Shown here: piece after piece, positions 50,236 to 59,629 of the stretch
Layout of the letters: every line of letters starts with the position of its first letter
Position numbering within the stretch: position 1 is the stretch's first letter
Assembly (NCBI GenBank): GCA_020723485.1
Contig: DYIU01000003.1
Location: 124,001-188,000, forward strand
DNA: 64,000 nt
Direction of reading: 5' to 3'
Source: Acidimicrobium ferrooxidans
GTDB lineage: Bacteria > Actinomycetota > Geothermincolia > Fen-727 > Anoxymicrobiaceae
The notes under the pieces: model-generated
What the model saw: the letters and a program-made list of their open reading frames with translations, nothing else
Told to the model about the DNA's origin: nothing
The model's database searches: none
Program-made: the position numbers and the translations under genes

Positions 50236-50240
50236 CAACC

Positions 50241-50421
50241 CGGAGCACCCCGGCGACGACCACGGCACCGGAGCCACCTTGTGCCACCCGAGGCACTCGG
50301 AGCACCCCGGCGACGACCACGGCACCGGAGCCACCCCGGCGACTAACACGGCACCGGAGCCACCTTGTGCCACCCGAGGCACTCGGAGCACCCCGGCGAC
50401 GACCACGGCACCCGAGCCACC
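50241..50421. repeat. Minisatellite, 57-bp unit, about three copies
   Basis: A GC-rich tandem array in the topA-hppA gap. Unit 1 (50241-50297) contains GAGCACCCCGGCGACGACC and TTGTGCCACCCGAGGCACT. Unit 2 (50298-50383) repeats it with an internal reduplication of the middle part, and unit 3 (50384-50421) repeats the first two thirds. Not a CRISPR: there are no unique spacers. Confidence 0.85.
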
Positions 50422-50451
50422 CCCGAGGCACCAGGACCCGATTTAGGGCTT

Positions 50452-53053: not shown

Positions 53054-53082
53054 ATTATATTGGCAGCCCCGGCAATCCGCAA
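53054..53082 (-). promoter_or_regulatory. hppA promoter
   Basis: Exact TATAAT (53054-53059) and TTGCGG (53077-53082) on the minus strand with a 17-base spacer. Transcription would give a leader of about 60 bases containing the 53010-53032 stem-loop. Confidence 0.65.
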
Positions 53083-53083
53083 G

Positions 53084-53125
53084 AAAAAAACGGGCGGTCT
53101 TCGGCCCCGGGACGGCGCCCGTTTT
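53084..53125 (-). terminator. Terminator-like hairpin between divergent promoters
   Basis: AAAACGGGCG (53087-53096) pairs with CGCCCGTTTT (53116-53125). On the minus strand the stem is followed by seven T. It would stop antisense transcripts coming from the aminotransferase side before they reach hppA. Confidence 0.5.
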
Positions 53126-53151
53126 ACCGGGCCCGCGGTGTCTGGTAGACT
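53123..53151 (+). promoter_or_regulatory. Candidate promoter of the aminotransferase operon
   Basis: TTTACC (53123-53128), 17-base spacer, TAGACT (53146-53151) with TGG before it (extended -10). The start codon is 46 bases downstream. Confidence 0.5.
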
Positions 53152-53197
53152 CAGTTCTCGGACCGAAGGTGGCTTAACTCCCCGCGGAGGTTTGTTC

Positions 53198-54349
53198 TTG
53201 ATATCGGAAAGGTCTTCCCGCCTTCCTCCCTTCTACGTGATGGAAATCCTCGAGAAGGCCCACGAGCTCGAACTGGAGGGGGCGGACATAGTCCACATGG
53301 AGGTGGGCGAGCCGGATTTCGACACTCCTGCCCCGGTCAAGGAGGCCGCCTTCCGGGCGATAACCGAGGGGATGACCTCCTACACGCACAGCCTGGGCAT
53401 CCCCCGACTTCGCCGGGCCATCGCCGACCACTACGGCGAGCGGTACGGGGTCGAGGTCTCGCCCGACAACATAGTGGTAACCACCGGCACTTCGCCGGCG
53501 ATGATGCTCGTCTTCGCCGCGCTGCTCAATCCCGGGGAGGAGCTCATCCTCTCCAATCCCTCCTACGCGTGCTACCCGAACATCCTGGAGTTCGTAGGGG
53601 GCGTCCCGAGGTACGTGGACGTCTTCGAGGAGGACGGCTTCAAGTACAGGCCGGAAGGGGTGGCCGGGCACCTTGGAGGACCGGTAAAGGGAGTCATGGT
53701 GAACTCGCCGTCCAACCCAACGGGCATCGTCCTGTCCGGCGACGACATGTCGGAACTGGTCGAGGCCGTCGGAGACCGGGCGTGGTTGATCTCCGACGAG
53801 ATATACCACGGACTCGTCTACGAGGGGCGGGAGCACTCGGTCCTGGAGTACACCGACCACGCCTTCGTCCTGAACGGCTTCAGCAAGCTCTACGCCATGA
53901 CGGGGTGGCGGCTGGGATACATAATCAGCCCCCCGGAGTTCGTCCGCGCCCTGCAGAAGATACAGCAGAACATCCTCATATGCGCCAACTCGTTCGTGCA
54001 GTGGGCCGCGGTAGCGGCGCTGGAGGAGACCGCGGAGCACACAGCGGAGATGGTCCGGCTCTACGACGAGCGCAGGCGCTTCATGCTCCCGCGGCTGCGG
54101 GAGATGGGCTTCGGCGTGGCGGTCGAGCCAACCGGGGCCTTCTACATATTCGCGAACGCGAAGAGCTTCACGGAGGACTCCTACGGTTTCTGCCTGGACG
54201 TTCTGGCGGGCGCCGGGGTCGCCATAACCCCGGGAATTGACTTCGGCAGCGGGGGCGAGGGCTACGTGCGGTTCTCGTACGCGAACTCACTCGAGAATCT
54301 GAAGGAAGGGGCCGACAGGCTCGAGAGATACCTGAAGGAGCGTGTTTAG
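53198..54349 (+). CDS. PLP-dependent aminotransferase, class I/II
   Basis: A 383-residue fold-type I aminotransferase. EVGEPDFDTP, TTGTSPAMML, NSPSNPTG and the PLP-Lys in NGFSKLYAMTGWRLGY are aspartate-aminotransferase family Ib-like motifs. Substrate could be aspartate, an aromatic amino acid or another; not decidable. TTG 53198 is chosen because GGAGG lies seven bases upstream and the family N-terminus follows; the longer frame would include the promoter. It starts an operon with a cyclase and a translin-like gene. Confidence 0.88.
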   Translation: MISERSSRLPPFYVMEILEKAHELELEGADIVHMEVGEPDFDTPAPVKEAAFRAITEGMTSYTHSLGIPRLRRAIADHYGERYGVEVSPDNIVVTTGTSPAMMLVFAALLNPGEELILSNPSYACYPNILEFVGGVPRYVDVFEEDGFKYRPEGVAGHLGGPVKGVMVNSPSNPTGIVLSGDDMSELVEAVGDRAWLISDEIYHGLVYEGREHSVLEYTDHAFVLNGFSKLYAMTGWRLGYIISPPEFVRALQKIQQNILICANSFVQWAAVAALEETAEHTAEMVRLYDERRRFMLPRLREMGFGVAVEPTGAFYIFANAKSFTEDSYGFCLDVLAGAGVAITPGIDFGSGGEGYVRFSYANSLENLKEGADRLERYLKERV

Positions 54350-54350
54350 C

Positions 54351-55118
54351 ATGGCGGGAAAGACTCGTTACGTCGACCTCAGCGTACCCATAGAGGAGTC
54401 GGAAAGCGAGCCGATGAGGCCCCAGGTGGTCCACATGGACCACGCGGCGGGGGCGCAGGTGATGTCGGCGATATTCGGCATCCCGGCAGCGGACCTCCCG
54501 GGGGGCCTGGGCTGGGCGAACGACAATATCACCCTCGTGACCCACGCGGGGACGCACCTGGACGCGCCCTGGCACTACGCTCCCACCGCCGGAGGGGACA
54601 GGGCGTGGACGATCGAGGAGGTGCCGCTCGAGTGGTGCTTCTCGGACGGGGTGGTGCTGGACTTCCGCTCCAAGCCGGACGGCGAGGCGATAAGCGCCGA
54701 CGAATGCGCGGCCGAGCTCGAGCGCATCGGCTACGAGGTGAAGCCGCTGGACATAGTCCTCATCATGACCGGCACCGACAAGCACTGGGGCAGTCCCGAC
54801 TACATAAACAGGGGCTGCGGCATGACGAAAGAGTCAACGATGTACTTCCTGGACCGCGGGGTCAAGGTGATGGGCATCGACGCCTGGGGTTTCGACCGCC
54901 CGTTCGTGAGCATCACCGACGAGTACAAGCAGACCGGCGACGCCTCTATCATCTGGGAAGCCCACTACGCCGGCATCGAGACCCCCTACTGCCACCTGGA
55001 GAAGCTCGCGAACCTCGACCTGCTGCCGGCGTCCGGGTTCAGGGTCGCGTGTTTCCCCGTCAAGATCACCGGCGCGAGCGCCGGCTGGTGCAGGCCAGTC
55101 GGCATCATCGAGGAATGA
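54351..55118 (+). CDS. Cyclase-family (arylformamidase-like) metal hydrolase
   Basis: A 255-residue protein of the kynurenine-formamidase/cyclase family. THAGTHLDAPWHY carries the metal-binding HxGTHxDxPxH motif at about residues 64-76, and MGIDAWGFDRP lies in the second half. Such enzymes hydrolyse N-formyl or lactone/amide bonds; the actual substrate is unknown. ATG 54351 directly follows the aminotransferase stop, with AAGGAG about ten bases upstream. Coupling with an aminotransferase hints at amino-acid catabolism. Confidence 0.85.
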   Translation: MAGKTRYVDLSVPIEESESEPMRPQVVHMDHAAGAQVMSAIFGIPAADLPGGLGWANDNITLVTHAGTHLDAPWHYAPTAGGDRAWTIEEVPLEWCFSDGVVLDFRSKPDGEAISADECAAELERIGYEVKPLDIVLIMTGTDKHWGSPDYINRGCGMTKESTMYFLDRGVKVMGIDAWGFDRPFVSITDEYKQTGDASIIWEAHYAGIETPYCHLEKLANLDLLPASGFRVACFPVKITGASAGWCRPVGIIEE

Positions 55119-55131
55119 AAGGCCTTTAAAA

Positions 55132-55764
55132 ATGGAACTGAAGCATATCTACGATACCGTCAAGGAGACATTCGACAGGGAGAACCGCGCCCGCGAGCAG
55201 GGGCTGTCGCTGTCGCGTGACACCATCCAGTTCTGCGCGAACTCGATAAGGGCCGTTCACCGCGGCGACCTGGAGGAGTCGCGGCGCCTCCTGAAAGCGG
55301 CGAGCGACAACATAGACCAGGCTCACACCCTCCTGGAACCGTACCCCCGCATCTACTACGCCGGGTTCCTTCAGGACGCCGAGAAGGAGTACGCCGAGGC
55401 GGCGACTACCTTCGCCCTGATAGAGGGCGACCCGCTCCCGCTGCCCGACGACCTCGGGGTAGGCACCGCGCCGTACCTGAACGGCCTGGGTGAGGCCGCG
55501 GGCGAGATGCGCAGGCACACGCTGGACCTTATCCGCGAGAACAGGCTGGAGCGCTGCGAGGAGGTCCTGGGCCTCATGGACGACATCTACTACCTCCTCG
55601 CCTCCATAGATTACCCTTCGGCGATAACCAGCGGCCTGAAGCGCACCAACGACATGGTGAGGGGAGTGCTCGAGCGGACGCGCGGCGACCTCACCACCGC
55701 CATCCGGCGACAGAGCCTCGAGCGCACCATGAAGGAGCTCGAAGACAAGCTCGGGGGCAATTGA
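55132..55764 (+). CDS. Translin-family protein (archaeal-type)
   Basis: A 210-residue, all-helical protein. The pattern RDTIQFCANSIRAVHRGD, YYAGFLQDAEKEYAEA, APYLNGLGEAAGEMRR, IDYPSAITSGLKRTNDMVRG and ERTRGDLT is that of the translin superfamily as found in archaea. The cluster of acidic residues in QDAEKEYAEA lies where TRAX has catalytic Glu residues, so RNA or DNA binding and possibly RNase activity are conceivable. Fourteen bases after the cyclase gene, so same transcript; a terminator follows. Rare in bacteria. Confidence 0.8.
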   Translation: MELKHIYDTVKETFDRENRAREQGLSLSRDTIQFCANSIRAVHRGDLEESRRLLKAASDNIDQAHTLLEPYPRIYYAGFLQDAEKEYAEAATTFALIEGDPLPLPDDLGVGTAPYLNGLGEAAGEMRRHTLDLIRENRLERCEEVLGLMDDIYYLLASIDYPSAITSGLKRTNDMVRGVLERTRGDLTTAIRRQSLERTMKELEDKLGGN

Positions 55765-55830
55765 CACGTATGCGCCCCGTGGTAAACTTGGATTTGTGAC
55801 AAGGTGCCGTAGCTTATAGCTACAGACAAA

Positions 55831-55862
55831 GAACTCCGATTCCGTCGGAGTTCCTTTGTTTT
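55831..55862 (+). terminator. Intrinsic terminator of the aminotransferase-translin operon
   Basis: GAACTCCGA (55831-55839) and TCGGAGTTC (55845-55853) form a 9-bp stem, followed by CTTTGTTTT. A smaller palindrome GTAGCT-TAT-AGCTAC (55809-55823) precedes it. Confidence 0.8.
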
Positions 55863-55929: not shown

Positions 55930-56006
55930 TGGGCCTGTAGCTCAGCCAGGGAGAGCGGCACTTTGTCACGGTGTGCGTCGCGGGTTCAAATCCCGCCAGG
56001 TCCACC
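55930..56006 (+). tRNA. tRNA-Asp (anticodon GTC)
   Basis: 77 bases with encoded CCA. Acceptor GGGCCTG/CAGGTCC, D-arm GCTC...GAGC, anticodon stem GCACT/GGTGT with loop TTGTCAC (anticodon GTC), T-arm GCGGG-TTCAAAT-CCCGC. Several G-T pairs in the anticodon stem, otherwise regular. Confidence 0.93.
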
Positions 56007-56064
56007 ACCCCTCGTGGGTATGCTCTCTGCTCGAGATGACAATCTAGCGGGGCATGTCCTCACG

Positions 56065-56297: not shown

Positions 56298-58994
56298 TCA
56301 CCTGGGGATGTCGCAGACCATGACGGTCATGTCGTCGCGGGCCTCGCCCTCGCAGAACTCGAGGACGCTGTCAATGAGGCTGTCGATGAACTGGTCGGGG
56401 GGCAGGTCGCCGTTCGTCGCCACGAACCTGTTCAACCTCTTCAGGCCGTAGAGCTTGTTCCTCGAGCTCTGGGCGTCTATGACCCCGTCGGTATAGAGCA
56501 CGAGCCGTTCCCCGGGGCGGAGCTTGCGCCGGCGCACGTCGAGGTCGGCCCTCGAGAATATACCGAGCAGCGAGCGGTTGTCCGATGAGAGCGGCTCGGC
56601 GACCTTGCCGGCCGGCAGGATGCTCAGGGGCTCCTCGTGCCCCGCGTTGGAGTAGCTCAACGTCATGGTGGGAAGGTCCAGCACGCCGAAGAACACGGTC
56701 ACGAAGCTGTCGGTCCTGTTCGCGGAGTAGAGGCTGCGGTTCACGTGCTCGAGTATCTCCATTATCCTGTTGTGCTCACGCGCTTCCACTCGCAGCGCGC
56801 TCATGGCCATGGTGGCGAAGAGCGCCGCCCCGACGCCCGTGCCGGAGGCGTCCCCGACCACCAGGAATATCTTGTCGCCGTAGCTCCAGTAGTCGAACCA
56901 GTCGCCTCCGACCATGCGCGCCTGCTGCTGCCGCGCCTGCACGCTGACGCCTCCCACCTGGAGCCGCTCGCGGGGGAGAAGGCTTGTCTGGATGCCGGAG
57001 GCGATATCCATCTCCCTCTGCATCAGGGCGTATTTCTCCAGCTCCTTCTGTTCGCTCATGTCTCGGTAGACGGCGACCACGTTCTCCACCCTCCCGTCGG
57101 GCCCGAGGATGGGCGAGAACGTCCCGCCGACCGGGATCCTCCTGCCGGAGCGCGTCACGATGTCGTCCTCGCTGTAGGCGACGTGCTCGCCGGCGAACAT
57201 CTTGCTTATGGGGCAGTCGGGGCCCGGGCAGACGCCGTTCGCGCTCGCCCCTCCGTAGAGGACCTCGTGGCAGTTCCGCCCCTGCGCCTCCTCCTGGCTC
57301 CAACCCGTCATGAACTCCGCCGCAGGGTTGGAGAGCACCACCTTGTGATCCCTGTCTATCACCAGCACGGCGTCGGGGGTCGCCTTCAAGACCGCCTCGC
57401 TCTTCTCGCGCTCGCGGTAGAGCCGCTCGTTTATCTCCGCGTTCTTTATCGTGAGCTGCTGCTCGAACAGCTTCTCCTGCAGCCTCCTGTTCTGTATGGC
57501 GACCGCCGCCTGACGGGCAAGTGAGTTGGCGAGCGAGATGTCCCCTTCCGTGAACTTGACCTCGGCCGAGGTGAACTCCAGGCTCATCAGCCCGATGAGC
57601 TCGTCCTTGACGACAAGCGGGACCTGGAGATAGGAGCGCACACCGGGGCCCCTGAATATCCTCGACTCGAGGCTCAGCTCCTCGGAGACGTCCTCCGCGA
57701 GCACCGGCTCCCGGGTCCGGAGAGCGCGGGCTGTGGCCTGCCCGAGCTCGGTCATCGGGATGTGGAACTGGTTCAGCAACCACACCTGCAGGGTGCTCCG
57801 CCCGTACCCGGCCATGAAGGTGAGGGCGTTGGCCTCCGGCTCGTAGAAGAACAGCGAACATCGGTCGACGCCGAGCGCAACAGCCGTCTTCTCCGCGATC
57901 ATCTCGAGCAGCTCGTCCAGGTCGCGCGTCTCGCTGACGGCCTGCGCCACCTCGGTGAGCATTATCGCCTGCCGCCGGCGCCGCCTCTCTTCGCGGAAGA
58001 GCCGTGCGTTCTTGATCGCCACCCCGGCCTGCGTGCCGAAGGTGGTGACCATGGTGATGTCGAGGTCGGTGTACAACCTGGGGGTGGTCTCATAGAGCTC
58101 GATCACGCCGATAGCCTCGTCGTCGACTGATATCGGGATGGAGAGCGCGGAACGTATCTTGCGGCCCGCGGCGGGGCGGGGCAGCTCGAACCCCGAGAGC
58201 TCGTCGTCGGTTGCGAGCACCTGCTCGTTCCTCTGAAGAGCTACCCCCGAGAGGCTGTTCTCGACAGGGATCCGCTCCCTGGCCACCCATGCCCGCGAGA
58301 GTCCCATCTCCGCCACGGGCTCCAGGAACTTCCTGGTCTCGTCAAGAAGCAGGACCGCTCCCATCCTGGTCTGCATCAGGCTGGTGGAGACCTCGAGAAT
58401 CTGGCCCAGCACGCCCTCGAGGTCGACCGTAGACACTATCGCCTGGCCGAGGTTCGCGAGGGCCCGGAACTCCTGGAGCTGGCGCTCCACGGTGGATTTC
58501 TCTTCCTTGAGGTAAGCCCGCCTGGTGTAATGTCTGACCTGCTTGGCGAAGAGGTCTCTCATCCTCGCCAGTTCGACCCATGCCTGCGCGGAGTACCCCT
58601 GCGGCAGCAGGGCCCGGGAGAGGCTGTCCCACACGAAGCTCTCTCCCTCGTCGAAGGTGCGGATCGCGTTCTCCAGCCGTATGCCCTGCGCGGCGCGCTT
58701 CTTGCCCACGTCGGTGGCGAGGCTCTTGATGAACTTGGTCGGAAGCTCCGCGGCCTCGAAGTAATCCATGTACAGCTGCACGAAGTCCCGGAACGACTGC
58801 CTGATGTCGGCTATTACCTCCGCGGGCAGGTTCTCGTACTGGGGTGTCGCGGCCTCGACGACCTTGTCTATGTCGGCGACCAGGGAGGTCTTGTTGTCAC
58901 GCAGCCAGCTCGCCACCGCGTGCCGGAGCGCCTTGGATTCCTGGGTGCCTCTTGCCGTGACGGCCTCATGGGTGCCGACAGGGTTCTCATCCAT
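56298..58994 (-). CDS. PP2C-type (SpoIIE/RsbU) phosphatase with two GAF and one PAS domain
   Basis: An 898-residue cytosolic signalling protein. Residues about 20-160 form a helical N-terminal region; a coiled linker follows. GAF domains lie at about 165-325 and 340-500 and a PAS domain at about 545-665 (LKATPDAVLVIDRDHKVVLSNPA). The C-terminal SpoIIE domain has VGGDWFDYWSYGDKIFLVVGDASGTGVGAALFA and ends with LVLYTDGVIDA...DDMTVMVCD, including the metal-binding Asp residues. It likely dephosphorylates an anti-sigma antagonist in response to a ligand or redox cue. No kinase or antagonist gene is nearby. A TATAAT box seven bases before the ATG suggests a leaderless mRNA. Confidence 0.92.
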   Translation of the reverse strand: MDENPVGTHEAVTARGTQESKALRHAVASWLRDNKTSLVADIDKVVEAATPQYENLPAEVIADIRQSFRDFVQLYMDYFEAAELPTKFIKSLATDVGKKRAAQGIRLENAIRTFDEGESFVWDSLSRALLPQGYSAQAWVELARMRDLFAKQVRHYTRRAYLKEEKSTVERQLQEFRALANLGQAIVSTVDLEGVLGQILEVSTSLMQTRMGAVLLLDETRKFLEPVAEMGLSRAWVARERIPVENSLSGVALQRNEQVLATDDELSGFELPRPAAGRKIRSALSIPISVDDEAIGVIELYETTPRLYTDLDITMVTTFGTQAGVAIKNARLFREERRRRRQAIMLTEVAQAVSETRDLDELLEMIAEKTAVALGVDRCSLFFYEPEANALTFMAGYGRSTLQVWLLNQFHIPMTELGQATARALRTREPVLAEDVSEELSLESRIFRGPGVRSYLQVPLVVKDELIGLMSLEFTSAEVKFTEGDISLANSLARQAAVAIQNRRLQEKLFEQQLTIKNAEINERLYREREKSEAVLKATPDAVLVIDRDHKVVLSNPAAEFMTGWSQEEAQGRNCHEVLYGGASANGVCPGPDCPISKMFAGEHVAYSEDDIVTRSGRRIPVGGTFSPILGPDGRVENVVAVYRDMSEQKELEKYALMQREMDIASGIQTSLLPRERLQVGGVSVQARQQQARMVGGDWFDYWSYGDKIFLVVGDASGTGVGAALFATMAMSALRVEAREHNRIMEILEHVNRSLYSANRTDSFVTVFFGVLDLPTMTLSYSNAGHEEPLSILPAGKVAEPLSSDNRSLLGIFSRADLDVRRRKLRPGERLVLYTDGVIDAQSSRNKLYGLKRLNRFVATNGDLPPDQFIDSLIDSVLEFCEGEARDDMTVMVCDIPR

Positions 58995-59001
58995 GCTGTC
59001 A

Positions 59002-59007
59002 ATTATA
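59002..59007 (-). promoter_or_regulatory. -10 box for a probably leaderless phosphatase transcript
   Basis: Exact TATAAT on the minus strand, ending seven bases before the ATG at 58994, with no ribosome site. No clear -35. Confidence 0.45.
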
Positions 59008-59087
59008 AAGTGTTTTGACCCCCGGTAAGGAATAAAGCCTCCCACTGAGCGGGCCCCCGGGCTCCGGCACGCGGTTTCCAGCCGGTT

Positions 59088-59116
59088 TTGTACCCCGGCG
59101 GTTTTTCGGATATATT
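59088..59116 (+). promoter_or_regulatory. Promoter of the small membrane coiled-coil gene
   Basis: TTGTAC (59088-59093), 17-base spacer, TATATT (59111-59116). It favours the ATG at 59144 as start, since the GTG at 59117 would precede the transcript start. Confidence 0.55.
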
Positions 59117-59143
59117 GTGACCTGGAAGCAGGGCTCCTGCAGG

Positions 59144-59629
59144 ATGGAGGAACAGAAGGTGGCAGCCACGGCACTTGAGATTATCGGCGCTATCACGATA
59201 GTGCTGGGTGTGCTCATCGCCATCGCCGTGCTGTTCTTCGTGAACAGGGGCCTGAAGGCGGCCAACCGTGGCCTCGAAGGCCGCAGGGGCGATGTGAGCA
59301 GGGACCTGCGTGCCTCGATGAAGGGCCTGGACGAAGCCCAGGTCCAGCTCGATGCGATGTCGACGGCGACCGCGGGGGTGAAATCGGGCATGGAAGCGGC
59401 GATCTCCGCCGCCGACAGGGTCGTGGCCTTCGTCAGGTCGAGCGTCTTCCAGGTGGGGGTCCCGACCGTGATGTGGGTGCTCCTGGTGCTCATCGCGGTT
59501 CCCCGCGGCCTCAGCCGCAGCAGGAAGCTCCTCAAGAAGAAGAAAAAGAAGAAGCCGATCCCACCGCCCTCGTGGGAAGCCGCCGCGGAACTTCTCGAAG
59601 CGGAGCCGCGCGCCGGCGGCCCCGGGTAA
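59144..59629 (+). CDS. Small membrane protein with coiled coil (function unknown)
   Basis: About 161 residues. TM1 about 9-32 (IIGAITIVLGVLIAIAVLFF), a central heptad-rich segment (about 35-100, LRASMKGLDEAQVQLDAM), TM2 about 105-125 (GVPTVMWVLLVLIAV), then a Lys-rich cytoplasmic stretch with KKKKKKK and an acidic tail. Related in layout to DUF948-like or chemotaxis-linker membrane proteins; no confident family. It is divergent from the GAF/PAS phosphatase and could be part of the same stress circuit, which is a guess. The following gap holds only a hairpin and a repeat. Confidence 0.65.
   Translation: MEEQKVAATALEIIGAITIVLGVLIAIAVLFFVNRGLKAANRGLEGRRGDVSRDLRASMKGLDEAQVQLDAMSTATAGVKSGMEAAISAADRVVAFVRSSVFQVGVPTVMWVLLVLIAVPRGLSRSRKLLKKKKKKKPIPPPSWEAAAELLEAEPRAGGPG

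Follow-up and report, generated by a model that had tools for sequence, protein, structure and literature searches.

A TRAX-like protein, probably a stand-alone ribonuclease, encoded beside aminotransferase and cyclase genes in an actinobacterial genome

Organization of the locus

The window analyzed here, a stretch of 64,000 nucleotides, contains an intact open reading frame with an ATG start and a TGA stop codon, whose product of 210 amino acids resembles TRAX (Table 1). The gene order around it is hppA (minus strand), aminotransferase, cyclase-family hydrolase and TRAX (all plus strand), followed by a SpoIIE-type phosphatase gene (minus strand). The aminotransferase and cyclase genes lie approximately 1 nt apart, and the arrangement of the three plus-strand genes is consistent with a single operon.

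Table 1. Features in and around the TRAX-like gene (positions within the window)
Feature	Position	Strand	Basis
PLP-dependent class I/II aminotransferase, first gene of putative operon	53060..54349	+	Pfam PF00155 (Aminotran_1_2) 1.7e-59; open frame, true start uncertain
Cyclase-family (kynurenine-formamidase-like) hydrolase, putative operon	54351..55118	+	Pfam PF04199 2.2e-36; stop 13 nt before TRAX start
TRAX-like protein gene (COG2178/PRK14562 clade, translin superfamily)	55132..55764	+	ORF and translation, 210 aa
E86 and E89 codons (ExxE)	55387..55398	+	Glu in 223/223 distinct bacterial sequences; alignment to AfTrax
E121 and E125 codons	55492..55506	+	Position 121 Glu 216, Asp 7; position 125 Glu 223/223
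Terminator-like hairpin downstream of TRAX	55831..55853	+	10 pairs, T-rich tail; consensus match only
tRNA-Asp(GTC), 167 nt downstream of TRAX, same strand	55931..56007	+	ARAGORN

A strong sigma-70-like promoter (TTGACA-16-TAAACT, extended -10; interval 55761-55860) overlaps the TRAX stop codon and, together with the hairpin, could give rise to a small transcript, some 65 nt long, just upstream of tRNA-Asp; this promoter/hairpin pair was not seen downstream of TRAX in close relatives. The tRNA-Asp interval also gave a weak Rfam match to tmRNA, under the gathering score. On the far side of the tRNA, the large phosphatase gene next to TRAX (56298-59174, minus strand) encodes a GAF-GAF-PAS-SpoIIE protein and recurs in the order to which the window genome belongs. 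Upstream, between the topoisomerase and membrane pyrophosphatase genes, a tandem repeat (50240-50423) has a unit of 28-29 bases and also fits a unit of 86 bases (2.2 copies at 95% match).

Assignment to the translin/TRAX superfamily

The best NCBIfam match of the 210-aa protein was NF011160 (PRK14562.1-5; 2.4e-76), and a phmmer search of the PDB retrieved AfTrax of Archaeoglobus fulgidus (3zc1; 4.4e-21, residues 14-190) and NEQ131 of Nanoarchaeum equitans (1.1e-8). A profile built from 27 relatives matched AfTrax (4.6e-33), human TRAX (0.0012) and Drosophila TRAX (0.0044-0.0056). Judged by these comparisons of sequence, homology to the translin/TRAX superfamily is far above chance.

The Pfam Translin model (PF01997) did not match the protein above its gathering score, an outcome that the preliminary description had named as grounds for abandoning the assignment. 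This score is a convention, which we did not take as defining membership of the superfamily. When the 27 relatives were scanned singly, only nine matched, all of them weakly (best 1.7e-4), and the miss is therefore attributed to the limited sensitivity of the Pfam model. Nor did any of the six NCBIfam models of the group (NF011156-NF011161) score the protein above its equivalog cut-off, and the cut-off of NF011160 was reached by none of the 297 Actinomycetota genomes searched. These six models carry the name "haloacid dehalogenase superfamily protein", yet they describe translin/TRAX proteins.

An AlphaFold monomer model, run on the 27-sequence alignment, was composed entirely of helices (pLDDT 95.5, pTM 0.89). 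In a Foldseek search of the PDB, every one of the best 50 matches was a C3PO, TRAX or translin chain; the best was chain C of the AfC3PO structure 3zc1 (E 3.9e-9, TM 0.82/0.91), on which the model superposes. AfC3PO ranked first, followed by NeC3PO with ssRNA and then by the human and fly TRAX chains, which came before most translin chains. Taken together with the profile matches, this order places the modeled protein nearer to TRAX than to translin. The proposal of an intact translin-family protein was thus upheld by NCBIfam, by AfTrax and by the predicted fold.

The product belongs to the PRK14562/COG2178 group, bacterial proteins of the translin family of which Gupta et al. compiled a catalogue in 2012 (J Mol Evol 75:155, as cited in PMC5424206, PMC8762117 and PMC3834833). 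Nothing fundamental separates it from those proteins, and since bacterial members were catalogued at that time, it is a further member of a described group. The preliminary description had called the bacterial function undescribed: no functional study of a bacterial TRAX was found in the literature searched, but the existence of such proteins was already on record.

Conservation of the catalytic positions

In the animal C3PO complex, TRAX is the part that cuts RNA. The TRAX-type quartet (ExxE plus D/ExxxE) is represented in the window protein by E86, E89, E121 and E125, which correspond to the model positions 85, 88, 120 and 124 used in the conservation count and the profile alignments. Among 223 distinct near-full-length bacterial TRAX sequences extracted from the collected loci, positions 85, 88 and 124 were Glu in all cases, while position 120 was Glu in 216 and Asp in seven. 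The acidic cluster QDAEKEYAEA had been likened beforehand to the TRAX active site, a likeness that holds: it contains E86 and E89, which align with the AfTrax ExxE; E121 and E125, aligned with AfTrax D114 and E118, complete the quartet. In the crystal of AfTrax bound to duplex RNA (3zc0, compared with 3zc1), the Asp of the second pair is Ala, and we interpret this form as a catalytic mutant. For Drosophila TRAX (3axj_B), a span of equal length (model 96-163 to 180-247) places positions 120 and 124 on residues 204 and 208, and D204/E208 is the pair that we take to be catalytic. Likewise, E86 and E89 are presumably the equivalents of human TRAX E126 and E129.

Basic residues were invariant or nearly so at R21, R29, R40, H43, R44, R127, R128 and R184; of these, R21, R29, H43, R127, R128 and R184 would fit a role in nucleic-acid binding. 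From the quartet pattern we infer a working nuclease, unlike a translin-like binder. The presence of Glu for Asp at the third carboxylate in almost all bacteria could alter metal geometry or rate.

Comparison with archaeal and eukaryotic C3PO

AfTrax, the closest of the solved proteins (about 31% identity across the full fold), is likewise a single-gene TRAX with both catalytic pairs at matching positions and an RR after the second motif. It differs in the Asp of its second pair, which is Glu in the window protein and in 216 of the 223 bacterial sequences, and the bacterial clade has fixed motifs that AfTrax does not show: R40/R44 (IRAxHR), LDLIR and TRGDL. NEQ131 (NeC3PO; 5jr9, 5jrc and 5jre, among them ssRNA and ssDNA complexes) shares the fold and the single-gene organization, but its identity is about 20% and it also has Asp where the window protein has Glu. 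In Nanoarchaeum, TRAX alone degrades RNA (PMC9051087).

The fold and the quartet positions are also common to the eukaryotic TRAX of C3PO (3pja, 3qb5, 3axj and 3riu). In contrast to eukaryotic TRAX, which has translin partners and a role in RNAi, the bacteria have essentially one gene per genome: the window's own genome holds one copy, rather than translin and TRAX paralogues side by side, and no Argonaute/Piwi above cut-off was detected in it or in 58 relatives. Argonaute, SepRS and Endonuclease V were each considered as partners and set aside, as none was linked to TRAX in searches of relatives.

Distribution and inheritance

The TRAX-like gene was present in 41 of 59 relatives of the window genome and, in sets whose phylum was assigned via their matching or anchoring loci, in 111 of 297 Actinomycetota, 112 of 201 Chloroflexota and 128 of 151 Armatimonadota genomes. 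Where a match occurred in these sets, it was almost always single-copy. A scan of contigs added UBP9 and further bacteria, with bacteria only among the matches. As the gene is carried by between a third and more than four fifths of the genomes sampled in three bacterial phyla, the earlier characterization of the family as mainly eukaryotic and archaeal does not hold.

A tree with two archaeal outgroups required 13 phylum changes, whereas none of 300 label shuffles required fewer than 85, which indicates that inheritance of bacterial TRAX has been largely vertical, with some mixing between Chloroflexota and Armatimonadota. A viral or defence origin was also considered and discarded: no PHROG, PADLOC or phage match was obtained, and the BFVD viral structure library returned no fold match to the model.

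Proposed function

The locus thus probably encodes a genuine stand-alone TRAX ribonuclease, a reading that draws on homology, fold, catalytic conservation, a broad and largely vertical distribution, single copy and the lack of Argonaute. The explanation that we favor, and hold to be likely, is a homo-oligomeric, metal-dependent endoribonuclease similar to archaeal C3PO, engaged in general turnover of RNA and tRNA fragments. It is supported by the sequence and profile matches to AfTrax and NEQ131, both of which were solved as C3PO, and it is weakened by a genomic context that varies between phyla and points to no single pathway. As the gene is single-copy in nearly all genomes, no translin/TRAX heteromer is expected; the protein would instead self-assemble, as AfTrax and NEQ131 do, into a tetramer or octamer that needs no separate translin subunit. 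The carboxylate pairs E86/E89 and E121/E125 would bind Mg2+ or Mn2+, and RNA would be cut endonucleolytically inside the assembly or at its mouth. The resulting job would be one of housekeeping, in which RNA fragments, plausibly tRNA-derived ones among them, are shortened, and would belong neither to amino-acid metabolism nor to RNA interference.

On a wider reading, about which we are nearly evenly divided and lean slightly to the side of doubt, the stand-alone TRAX RNase would belong to the core machinery of RNA turnover in several bacterial phyla (more than four fifths of Armatimonadota, more than half of Chloroflexota, and deep Actinomycetota) and would have been passed on mostly by vertical descent. 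Its substrates would be small RNA fragments, derived from tRNA or otherwise; the RNAi role of eukaryotic C3PO would be a late new use for an RNase already old in bacteria and archaea, and the Glu-for-Asp site would mark a distinct catalytic subtype. If the RNase reading is true, research has passed over an RNA-cutting enzyme that is nearly universal in Armatimonadota and occurs in a large part of Chloroflexota and Actinomycetota, in part because it escapes Pfam Translin and goes under the name of haloacid dehalogenase at NCBI. Bacterial TRAX would then show the job of C3PO before RNA interference and offer a simple, single-gene system for its study. The interest of the finding, which we regard as moderate, rests on breadth, complete catalytic conservation, misnaming and the absence of a functional study from the literature searched.

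Possible links to tRNA

A narrower form of the favored explanation, compatible with it, would dedicate TRAX to tRNA maturation or quality control, where it would remove 5' leader fragments or defective tRNAs together with the CCA-adding enzyme. Among the 30 best-scoring, and hence related, Armatimonadota genomes, 12 have TRAX immediately before the CCA-adding enzyme gene (cca), with a gap of roughly 2-140 nt and with differing upstream genes; this recurrent pair is suggestive of a tRNA link in many members of that phylum. Moreover, TRAX and SepRS are often encoded in one operon in archaea (PMC5424206, PMC8762117), and C3PO of Neurospora removes 5' pre-tRNA fragments, according to work cited in PMC3834833. 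Against so dedicated a role, no TRAX-cca pair was observed in Actinomycetota or Chloroflexota, the tRNA-Asp(GTC) gene of the window was not found beside TRAX in relatives, and SepRS was neither among the window's TRAX neighbours nor above cut-off in any of 59 genomes (weak matches occurred in most control genomes too).

A second tRNA gene initially appeared relevant. In 40 of 100 Actinomycetota TRAX loci, from many families, tRNA-Ala(CGC) lies 36-216 nt downstream of TRAX on the same strand, at many of them with a -10-like box just ahead of the tRNA. As a synteny control, tRNA-Ala(CGC) was located in 297 genomes and 20 regions were taken from genomes with no TRAX match there. Upstream of the tRNA, 16 of the 20 had moeA and/or moaC, and two more had galU. 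Since the galU-moeA-moaC block is kept in TRAX-less genomes, the adjacency is inherited synteny and was rejected as functional evidence: the block galU-moeA-moaC-(TRAX)-tRNA-Ala(CGC) is old, and TRAX is an optional member of it. Overall, we consider an exclusive dedication to tRNA somewhat unlikely.

An alternative role in binding without catalysis

Translin has the same fold as TRAX and binds nucleic acid without cutting it. The bacterial protein might similarly coat or store RNA or bind ssDNA, with its carboxylates serving a structural purpose, and the replacement of the AfTrax Asp by Glu in most bacterial sequences could be taken in this sense. We regard this as improbable, given that the four acidic positions were retained in 223 of 223 sequences, also across phyla at about 45-50% identity, and that both the profile matches and the Foldseek order lie on the side of TRAX.

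The aminotransferase-cyclase neighbourhood

TRAX might alternatively serve the amino-acid pathway of its neighbours, for example as a regulator of their transcript. The tight same-strand spacing agrees with this, as does the retention of the aminotransferase-cyclase-TRAX trio in three families, f1, f2 and f4, that belong to the window's order. Elsewhere, the picture is different: the aminotransferase adjoins TRAX across the class but is divergent in other families (f5-f7), where the cyclase, which adjoins TRAX only in genomes of the window's order, is missing. In other phyla, the neighbours of TRAX are wholly different; in Dehalococcoidia, for instance, it follows rnhB, yraN, Zn-ribbon genes and thiE and precedes hppA. 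With the trio confined to a single order, the operon says little about the function of TRAX, and we judge a pathway-specific role very improbable. The operon suggested in the preliminary description is hence real as a same-strand cluster that recurs within the order, but uninformative as to function, the contexts elsewhere being unrelated.

At one Chloroflexota locus, an aminotransferase gene also lies beside TRAX; its product has 37% identity to that of the window and was not accepted as an orthologue. In Dehalococcoidia, the ThiE proteins whose genes immediately precede TRAX have N-terminal extensions of approximately 120-140 aa, which fall into two or more unlike kinds. A TRAX-like N-terminus in these proteins was considered and rejected, as no profile match was obtained, and the one extension scanned against Pfam gave no match.

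Finally, that the protein is an enzyme of the haloacid dehalogenase superfamily, as the name of its best NCBIfam model would have it, has a negligible likelihood: Pfam scans returned no domain of that superfamily, the model is all-helical and has no Rossmann fold, and the best 50 Foldseek matches are all translin, TRAX or C3PO chains, and the label is therefore wrong as to fold.
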